Part shown: one piece after another, positions 36,435 through 38,613 of the stretch
Layout of the letters: each line of letters begins with the position of its first letter
Position numbering within the stretch: the stretch's first letter is position 1
Origin: an uncultured Verrucomicrobiota bacterium
GTDB taxonomy: Bacteria; Verrucomicrobiota; Verrucomicrobiia; Limisphaerales; UBA8199
NCBI GenBank assembly: GCA_903873945.1
Contig: CAIQQM010000152.1
Coordinates: 1-56,321, forward strand
Reading direction: 5' to 3'
Length of the DNA stretch: 56,321 nucleotides
Made by a program: the position numbers and the translations under genes
Notes under the pieces: generated by a model
The model's database searches: none
What the model was told of the DNA's origin: nothing
The model's input: only the letters and a program-made list of their open reading frames with translations

Positions 36435-36798
36435 CGCGCCTCCAGAATCGGCTTTTTACAACCTCCGGCAAAATTGGCGGAGGTGGGGCGGCCGCTCCAT
36501 TGCCCACCGCAGCAAGCTGTGTTTAATAGGGAAGCCGACCTTCGACTCTATGCCTGTAGCGGCGGGCATCCCTGCCGCCCGGCCAGAAACCAGCTTCAAT
36601 CCGTGGCTTCCAGCTTCCGTCGCAGCCAATCAATTTTCAGGAGAGAGCAAGGTGGGACTCAAAATTTTGCTTCACAACCACTCCCGCCCGTGGATGATAA
36701 GGTCATGAAGGGGAGTCCCGGTACCCGATCTGGCAATTCGGGAGCCAGTGGAGGGGGTTGTCCTCGGCGAGCTGAGTGTTAGGCGTCTGGAAGGATAT
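36435..36798. other. Gene-free gap with hairpins, left border of cassette array
   Basis: No convincing gene lies here. ACCTCCGGC / GGCGGAGGT (36461-36484) forms a nine-pair stem with one mismatch, 27 bases after the peroxiredoxin stop, but lacks a T run. A second palindrome, GGCGG...CCGCC, lies near 36562-36580. The gap ends with the R'-type box GTTAGGC (36778-36784) that starts the cassette array. No left arm partner for that box was found. Confidence 0.5.
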
Positions 36799-37101
36799 AT
36801 GACACGAGAAGAGATCGAAGCTTGTTGGAAAGAACCACACAATTGGAAGTGGTGCGTCTATTATTGCAAGGCAGATCCGCGAGCGATCGTACCAAGGCGT
36901 CTCAAGTGGATGGGCTGGACGGTGAATTTCGCGCGCCCGAGCGCTCTCCCGATCACATTGCTTTTGATCGCATTAGTGGCTGTTCCATTGCTCGTCGTGA
37001 AAGCCCAGGGAGCAGGGAGTGGCATCGAGCTGATTACTGGAGCCGCGTCCATCACCGTTTTGTGCTTGGTATGCGCCTATTTGTCTTCACGCACGGAATG
37101 A
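36799..37101 (+). CDS. DUF5808-like small membrane protein (cassette 1)
   Basis: A 100-residue protein. WKEPHNWKWCVYYCKADPRAIVPRR then MGWTVNFARPSALP resembles the DUF5808 motif (NWK-x-GxFYFNxxDPRxxVPKRxGxGWTLNF). Two hydrophobic segments follow (about 52-70 and 76-95). AAGGA lies seven bases before the ATG. It begins 14 bases after an R' box and ends 10 bases before an attC site, so it is a mobile cassette gene. Its role is unknown. Confidence 0.75.
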   Translation: MTREEIEACWKEPHNWKWCVYYCKADPRAIVPRRLKWMGWTVNFARPSALPITLLLIALVAVPLLVVKAQGAGSGIELITGAASITVLCLVCAYLSSRTE

Positions 37102-37111
37102 GAACGTCGCC

Positions 37112-37238
37112 CCCTAAAACGAAGCGCTGGAGGCAACAGCCGCCGCACATTCAGCATAGGCCGTCACATGAAATTTAAACCTTATCGTTGCCAGCGTGAG
37201 TCAGCCTCCGGCGGCTGTGCCTCAGCTGTGCGTTAGGC
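37112..37238 (+). other. attC recombination site 1 (after cassette 1)
   Basis: The right end is a perfect R' box GTTAGGC (37232-37238); the left end is a looser CCCTAAAAC. The arms pair over AGGC and ACAGCCGCCG (left 37130-37145; right 37211-37224 region). The left arm has an extra G after GCTG and an extra A inside GGCAACAG, which would stay unpaired. Such single extrahelical bases set strand choice in attC sites. The central spacer is about 65 bases. Total length is 127 bases, inside the known attC range. Confidence 0.8.
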
Positions 37239-37250
37239 ATCGCTAACTCT

Positions 37251-37622
37251 ATGAGCATTCCTACCGGCATCCGCAAAGACAAGAACGTGACGGCATCCGC
37301 TCTCTTCGGCGTCGCGGCGATTCAGATTGTCATTGGAGCTATCGGTTACTTCGTTTACAGCGGAGAGATGGGATTGCTCGACCGCATCATCTCATTCAGC
37401 GGAGTTTTTTACATTGCACTTGGTATCGCGGCGCGATGGGTTCGACTTCCAGCGGCATTCATCGGCGCTGTGCTCTACGCGGCATTTCTCGCATTTCAGG
37501 CGTCTCGCAGCATGGACTTGCTGATGACTGGCCTCATCTTCAAGATACCAGTCGTGATTCTTCTCATCGTAGCGGTGGTGTTTGTGTTGAGGCGTCCACC
37601 GACAGGAGGGGAGACAGTTTGA
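37251..37622 (+). CDS. Four-helix membrane protein of unknown function (cassette 2)
   Basis: A 123-residue protein with four predicted membrane spans (about residues 17-36, 45-60, 65-83 and 92-112) and a short Pro/Thr/Gly tail. No known domain was recognised. It starts 12 bases after the R' box of attC 1 and stops 13 bases before attC 2, so it is a cassette gene. No promoter is visible, so expression probably depends on read-through. Confidence 0.7.
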   Translation: MSIPTGIRKDKNVTASALFGVAAIQIVIGAIGYFVYSGEMGLLDRIISFSGVFYIALGIAARWVRLPAAFIGAVLYAAFLAFQASRSMDLLMTGLIFKIPVVILLIVAVVFVLRRPPTGGETV

Positions 37623-37635
37623 TTATGACCGTGAT

Positions 37636-37728
37636 GCCTAACCCGCCGAGTGCAGGCGACGCCGGATTCGCGTTCTGCTTACATGCTGGGCGTCATTGGC
37701 CCGGCGCACCTGACTCGGATCGTTCGGT
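37636..37728 (+). other. attC recombination site 2 (after cassette 2)
   Basis: R'' is a perfect GCCTAAC (37636-37642) and R' is GTTCGGT (37722-37728). The arms pair as CCGAGT-(G)-CAGG with CCGAGT-CAGG on the reverse complement, with one unpaired G, and then CGCCGG with CGCCGG across a small internal bulge. The spacer of about 30 bases would form the terminal structure. Total length is 93 bases. Confidence 0.82.
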
Positions 37729-37740
37729 CACACAGTCTCT

Positions 37741-38502
37741 ATGTCCATTCGGCATTTGAGTAAGCGGGTGGTGCGGGTGATCGCAATTCCGTTCGTGCTT
37801 TACTTGGTCTTGGTGACGGTTGTTTACTTCTGTCAACGGTCGATGCTCTTCTTTCCGACGCACACTACCCCTTCCACCAGGCTGACCCCGTGGTCGGACG
37901 GTAGTCGGACGATTGGCTACTGCCGGGAGGTGCCAAATGCCCGCACCGTTTGGCTTATGATGCACGGAAACGCTGGGCAGGCTGCGGACCGAGATTACGT
38001 TCTTAGCCGCATGTCCGATCAGGATTCTCTCTACGTGCTTGAGTATCCTGGATATGGCCTGCGGGACGGGAAGCCTTCCCTGGAGTCCATTAACCAAGCT
38101 GCCTCAGACGCGTACCACATCTTACGGTTGCAGAGGCAAAACACCCCGGTCTGCGTTCTTGGAGAATCTATCGGCAGCGGCCCTGCCTGCGTTCTTGCTG
38201 GAGAGAAAGTTGCACCGGACAAGATCGTGTTGGTTGTGCCTTTCGACTCCTTGGTGAACGTAGCCTCCGAACGCTTCTACTTTCTCCCGGTCCGCTTGAT
38301 GCTTCGCGACACTTGGAATAATGTGGAAGCACTGAGGCACTATGCGGGACCAGTTGAGATCTTCGGAGCCACGGGTGACTCGATCATTCCGGTTGAGCAC
38401 GCCAAGGCCTTGGCGAGACAGATTGCCAGCGCTCACTTCACTGCGATTAGTGGCGGGCACAACGACTGGTCGGTAAATAACGAGGTGAAGATCACACGAT
38501 GA
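37741..38502 (+). CDS. Alpha/beta hydrolase, membrane-anchored (cassette 3)
   Basis: A 253-residue serine hydrolase. One N-terminal membrane segment (about residues 13-30) is followed by the fold: WLMMHGNAGQAADRDYVL holds the oxyanion loop, VLEYPGYGLRDGKPS follows, and the nucleophile is in VLGESIGSGPA. The acid is in FGATGDSIIPVEHA and the histidine in ISGGHNDW. It resembles YqkD/ABHD17-type hydrolases that act on lipid or acyl thioester substrates. It starts 12 bases after the attC 2 R' box. Mobile cassettes often carry such enzymes. Confidence 0.85.
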   Translation: MSIRHLSKRVVRVIAIPFVLYLVLVTVVYFCQRSMLFFPTHTTPSTRLTPWSDGSRTIGYCREVPNARTVWLMMHGNAGQAADRDYVLSRMSDQDSLYVLEYPGYGLRDGKPSLESINQAASDAYHILRLQRQNTPVCVLGESIGSGPACVLAGEKVAPDKIVLVVPFDSLVNVASERFYFLPVRLMLRDTWNNVEALRHYAGPVEIFGATGDSIIPVEHAKALARQIASAHFTAISGGHNDWSVNNEVKITR

Positions 38503-38518
38503 GCGCGCGTTTCTCGGA

Positions 38519-38613
38519 GCCGAACCAGCCGCATTCAGCCAACAGCCACCACGGATGTCATTTGCGATTCGAGCGTCGTGGTATGGTGGCTGTGGCTGAT
38601 TTGCTAGATGGGC
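38519..38613 (+). other. attC recombination site 3 (after cassette 3), degenerate R'
   Basis: R'' is GCCGAAC (38519-38525). The arms pair over TCAGCCA-(A)-CAGCCACCA on the left with TCAGCCACAGCCACCA on the reverse complement of the right arm. That is 16 pairs with a single unpaired A. The outer box at the right reads GATGGGC (38607-38613) instead of GTTRRRY, so recombination at this border may be impaired. Total length is 95 bases. katG follows 64 bases later. Confidence 0.78.

Follow-up and report, generated by a model that had tools for sequence, protein, structure and literature searches.

In integrons generally, the integrase (IntI) recognises the folded bottom strand of the attC site and cuts it at the G^TT of the R′ box. 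Runs of cassettes without an integrase are called CALIN elements, a category defined with IntegronFinder (PMC9024848, PMC8618304) and recognised by at least two attC sites less than 4 kb apart; they are described as arising in three ways, by off-target insertion, by loss of intI or by rearrangement (PMC8618304). For cassettes that enter secondary (attG) sites, a GNT rule is known (PMC4618277). We are close to certain that the locus considered here is such a CALIN, made of three cassettes, each with one gene and its attC site, in a Limisphaerales chromosome, with a peroxiredoxin gene on one side and katG on the other. The window, i.e. the whole stretch of DNA analysed, is the entire contig C152, 56,321 bases long, and belongs to a bin of 3.48 Mb in 312 contigs, 90% complete. 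This genome is labelled G000, with C-numbers for contigs and L-numbers for loci. The features needed for what follows, all on the + strand, are these.

35955..36434, +, AhpC/TSA peroxiredoxin gene, chromosomal flank (Pfam AhpC-TSA, E 1.1e-32; 79-88% identity in 12 other genomes of the family)
36669..36784, start uncertain, +, site 0, possibly a degenerate attC, whose right end is R′ box GTTAGGC at 36778-36784 (weak pairing, z 0.26)
36799..37101, +, cassette 1 gene, small protein of 100 aa with a DUF5808 motif (Pfam DUF5808, E 2.2e-9)
37112..37238, +, attC site 1, 127 bases
37251..37622, +, cassette 2 gene, 123 aa, no family
37636..37728, +, attC site 2, 93 bases, GCCTAAC...GTTCGGT
37741..38502, +, cassette 3 gene, alpha/beta hydrolase of 253 aa (Pfam Hydrolase_4, E 1.3e-6)
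38519..38613, +, attC site 3, 95 bases, last in the array, R″ GCCGAAC and R′ GATGGGC
38678..40873, +, KatG-type catalase-peroxidase gene, chromosomal flank (Pfam peroxidase in two stretches, E 1.3e-69)

An earlier note, made from the sequence alone, had described an integrase-less cassette array in a Verrucomicrobia-like chromosome, and much of it holds. The glutamyl-tRNA synthetase of the window is 82% identical to that of a Verrucomicrobiota MAG and 79% to that of a Limisphaerales MAG, so that the lineage it had named is correct. The compact plan that it had proposed for all three genes (R′ box, 12-14 bases, ATG, gene, 10-16 bases, palindrome) agrees with the gaps that we measured: 14, 12 and 12 bases from R box to ATG in genes 1, 2 and 3, then 10, 13 and 16 bases from stop to the following R box. 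The lengths announced for the palindromes, 93 to 127 bases, are likewise those found, as are arms interrupted by single unpaired bases. Palindromes 1 and 3 carry their unpaired base, an A, at an equal position (GAGGC-A-ACAGCC and CAGCC-A-ACAGCC), which is also that of the extrahelical A in the attC sites of the complete integron of G296, while the extrahelical bases of site 2 are an extra G and an extra A. The structure expected of an attC site, an imperfect palindrome with polarity-setting extrahelical bases, is thus present. With three sites within 1.5 kb, the spacing is also that of a CALIN.

The R boxes themselves require a more qualified statement. They do stand at the ends of the palindromes, as had been claimed; several of them are degenerate. 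Measured against the consensus used here (R″ RYYYAAC, R′ GTTRRRY), the R′ boxes at 36778 and of site 1 are canonical, that of site 2 has one mismatch (GTTCGGT) and that of site 3 is degenerate (GATGGGC); among the R″ boxes, site 2 has a canonical one, site 3 one with a single mismatch (GCCGAAC) and site 1 a disrupted one (CCTAAAACG). A box close to that of site 2, GTTCGGC, also occurs in an array adjoining IntI (L066). Because each site of the window has a non-consensus box, a strict scan with the two consensus motifs recovered none of them, and relaxed boxes together with covariance models were therefore required. Considering the number of degenerate boxes, the array is probably decaying, and sites 1 and 3 may no longer recombine, the R″ box of the former and the R′ box of the latter being off consensus.

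In order to avoid circularity, a first covariance model, R1, was built from 25 attC sites whose arrays lie close to integron integrase genes, all from other genomes of the phylum; when RNAalifold was applied to its alignment, the pairing of R boxes and L boxes emerged by itself. Searched with filters off, the 56-kb window gave its three best matches at site 2 (15.8 bits), site 3 (13.8 bits) and site 1 (11.1 bits), the next one elsewhere scoring 9.6 bits; each of these scores is weak when taken singly. A second model, R2, was derived from 17 sites related to site 1, none of them from the window. It matched site 1 with 116.8 bits (E 6.8e-28) and site 3 with 44.4 bits (E 1.6e-9), favoured the + orientation, and gave no match at site 2 in the search of the window. 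Checking the palindromes with attC models, as the earlier note had advised, hence placed all three first with R1, if weakly, and recovered sites 1 and 3 alone with R2. Since R2 matches both, sites 1 and 3 are related, and the view that the three palindromes do not share sequence must be abandoned. At gathering thresholds, Rfam gave no match at the locus.

As the R1 scores are low, homology and structure count for more than model score in the identification of site 2. Within the family, G392 has on its contig C51 an attC site to which site 2 is 73% identical over 99 bases, and about 0.65 kb from that attC lies an intI of 470.7 bits. In a scan for R boxes with arms, palindrome 2 reached 46.5, and 30 simulated windows peaked at 45.0. 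For palindromes 2 and 3, folding of the bottom strand surpasses that of shuffled sequences (z -2.3 and -2.6). At the left end of the array, site 0 was detected by neither R1 nor R2; positions 36731-36775 resemble the sequence immediately upstream of the cassette 2 homologue in G398 (35 of 45 bases identical, E 7e-4), and this match suggests that the left end holds one further, degraded attC.

Copies of site 1 are found elsewhere in its own genome, at 91% identity on C118 and 86% on C104, with others on C201 and C108, and twelve further genomes of the order have relatives of it. In the bin, R2 matches two sites on C118, two on C104, one each on C201 and C108, the two of the window and a weak one on C251; three of the model's rows were taken from C201, C118 and C104, so that three matches on these contigs are there by construction. 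With R1, C201 reached 26.5 bits and C283 25.2 bits. The genes that follow the copies differ among C118, C104 and C201. Taken together, the matches to models blind to the window, the copies beside other genes of the same genome and the homology to the attC site close to an integrase gene in G392 show palindromes 1 to 3 to be attC sites, as had been identified earlier.

An ordinary small operon, with hairpins acting as terminators or as mRNA-stability elements and no link to integrons, might have looked much the same at first sight: the three genes, inserted between the peroxiredoxin gene and katG, are co-directional and closely spaced, and intergenic hairpins are common. Such an operon would leave unexplained the terminal R boxes and the shared extrahelical base, the matches to attC models drawn from arrays next to IntI and the presence of palindrome copies alongside other genes. 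It fits no better with the homologue of the cassette 1 gene in G558 (63% identity), which is flanked by two attC sites, of 78 and 40 bits, within an array that has at least four. Conservation of the three genes as an operon in relatives, the case that the earlier note had set against its own reading, finds no counterpart in the family: in all 12 other genomes, within the sequence read, neither the array nor katG follows the peroxiredoxin gene, and so the three genes are not a conserved operon. Model matches and lack of synteny together already refute this explanation, to which we give scarcely any credence.

It could further be argued that we face a dispersed family of attC-like hairpins, now moving by another route, for example as a REP-like element. 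Hairpins of the site 1 type do occur single or paired on several contigs, the copy on C108 is alone and has degraded R boxes, and G404, of the same order, has 22 R2 matches scattered over many contigs (C55, C220, C18, C20, C69, C133 and others) and lacks any integron integrase at E <= 1e-50. The same type of attC site, however, adjoins IntI in several genomes, R2-type sites and IntI matches being found on one contig in, e.g., G402 (C66), G426 (C454) and G505 (C40), and most of the copies in the window's own genome (C118, C104, C201) keep the cassette layout. A repeat that has left the integron is therefore very improbable, and we retain the array of true cassettes.

Taking the cut-off of TIGR02249, 265 bits, as the mark of an integron integrase, none was found in the window, as the earlier note had stated, nor in the whole of the bin. 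The best recombinase of the bin reaches 167.7 bits as a whole protein against the IntI model. It is the tyrosine recombinase of L017, on C163 (530-2602), which adjoins an IS91-type transposase (Y2_Tnp, Zn_Tnp_IS91); considered as an IntI, it was rejected, being below the cut-off, devoid of the integron-specific middle segment and placed before the transposase. A complete integron, with intI and attI adjoining the array, was not found, in line with the lack of an intI over the cut-off in the bin, and the upstream R′ box (36778) is part of an attC-like remnant or of an unclear element. CALIN is the right term for the locus because no integrase over the cut-off was found in window or bin. A working integron might yet persist, its intI being on a contig that escaped assembly or binning, and the cassettes of the window having been moved by that integrase or separated from it. 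IntI over the cut-off is present in 6 of the 12 other genomes of the family, and in a fragmented bin the gene could sit in the missing tenth. The bin as it stands has none, however, the array is interior to its 56-kb contig with chromosomal genes on either side, and R boxes as degenerate as these point to drift; we hold this possibility to be unlikely, if worth keeping in mind.

We may then understand the CALIN as follows. An integron integrase would have placed the cassettes at the locus and would since have been lost from the genome, or be absent from the bin; once it was gone, the sites would have decayed. The cassettes would have been drawn from different arrays, which accounts for attC types that differ from one cassette to the next, the site 1 type recurring in its own genome. 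Among origins, integrase loss with decay of the sites appears to fit best, since site 1 (in R″), site 3 (in R′) and the copies on C104 and C108 all have boxes that stray from the consensus. Off-target insertion is possible, since the last R′ box, GATGGGC, obeys the GNT rule. Like insertions at attG (PMC4618277), the array is away from any intI; unlike them, its left end resembles an attC remnant and not plain host DNA. An empty insertion site for the array was looked for and none was identified, and plasmid records gave no match to it. One might extend off-target insertion to the entire order, with cassettes of a single attC type scattered, one by one or a few at a time, over many chromosomal loci, in genomes with or without an integrase gene, by integrases that routinely insert outside attI, the array of the window being one such event. 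We consider this broader reading doubtful, and prefer a locus that lost its integrase.

The locus thus resembles the CALIN elements already described (PMC9024848, PMC8618304) in having two or more attC sites in close succession, a single cassette orientation and no integrase nearby, and differs from them by being small (three cassettes), by the degeneracy of its R boxes and by an attC type that is typical of the order. It is also close to the chromosomal integrons of Verrucomicrobiota, for example that of G296 (contig C6, L050), from the same order, with which it shares attC architecture, the extrahelical base and cassettes of one small gene each; in G296, however, intI adjoins an array of similar attC sites, whereas intI is lacking from the window and its three attC sites differ. 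The lineage had been presented as making such an array notable, and this was overstated: IntI over the cut-off was found in 79 of 245 genomes of the order and in 108 of 388 of the phylum, and the Verrucomicrobiota are already among the published integron-bearing phyla (PMC8618304). These shares of the sampled genomes, 32% for the order and 28% for the phylum, exceed the 20% at which a review puts complete integrons among Gammaproteobacteria (PMC8618304), although the two samples are unmatched. At least one R2 match is present in 76 of 116 genomes sampled from the order. Integrons being common in the phylum, the initial surprise is reduced, and what we have is a confirmed orphaned cassette run, of a kind already known, in an uncultured lineage. 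With integrases at such frequencies, the Limisphaerales may constitute a large, little-studied reservoir of gene cassettes.

The cassette genes vary in what they tell of mobility. Besides the homologue in G558, the cassette 1 gene has one in G399, of the same family (68% identity), not flanked by attC sites, and a copy in G140 (77% DNA identity) outside that genome's attC run. Cassette 2, from its hydrophobic stretches, probably encodes a membrane protein. It has homologues in G398 (61%) and G464 (60%), and the block that can be aligned extends to GCCTAA of the R″ box in G398 and one base beyond in G464, divergence setting in thereafter; a query with cassette 2 gave no match in the genome-contig dataset. 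Homologues of the cassette 3 hydrolase, at 60% and 49% identity, give no support for mobility since neither is in a cassette.

A few observations were made along the way. In the window (37168-37236) and in the homologous loops of about 70 sites of the order, stop codons are unusually scarce in the frame that closes with the R′ box TAG. Among 31 dereplicated loops, 27 keep open this possible leader frame of the site 1 family, whose start is sometimes ATGAAA within the loop. Neither a third-position excess nor an amino-acid constraint was seen in it, and unrelated attC sites do not have the same open-frame bias; shared ancestry is therefore the simpler account, and a leader reading frame was set aside. 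On C283 (L083, 9610-9702), the element that scored 25.2 bits is a single attC-like one, resembling the attC of G296, located between other genes with no evident cassette. On C201 (L082, 8618-8638), a 21-base element, GCCTAACTCTGGACGTTAGGC, precedes a small gene; it has kept R″ and R′ boxes with the stem almost wholly gone, and looks like a collapsed attC.
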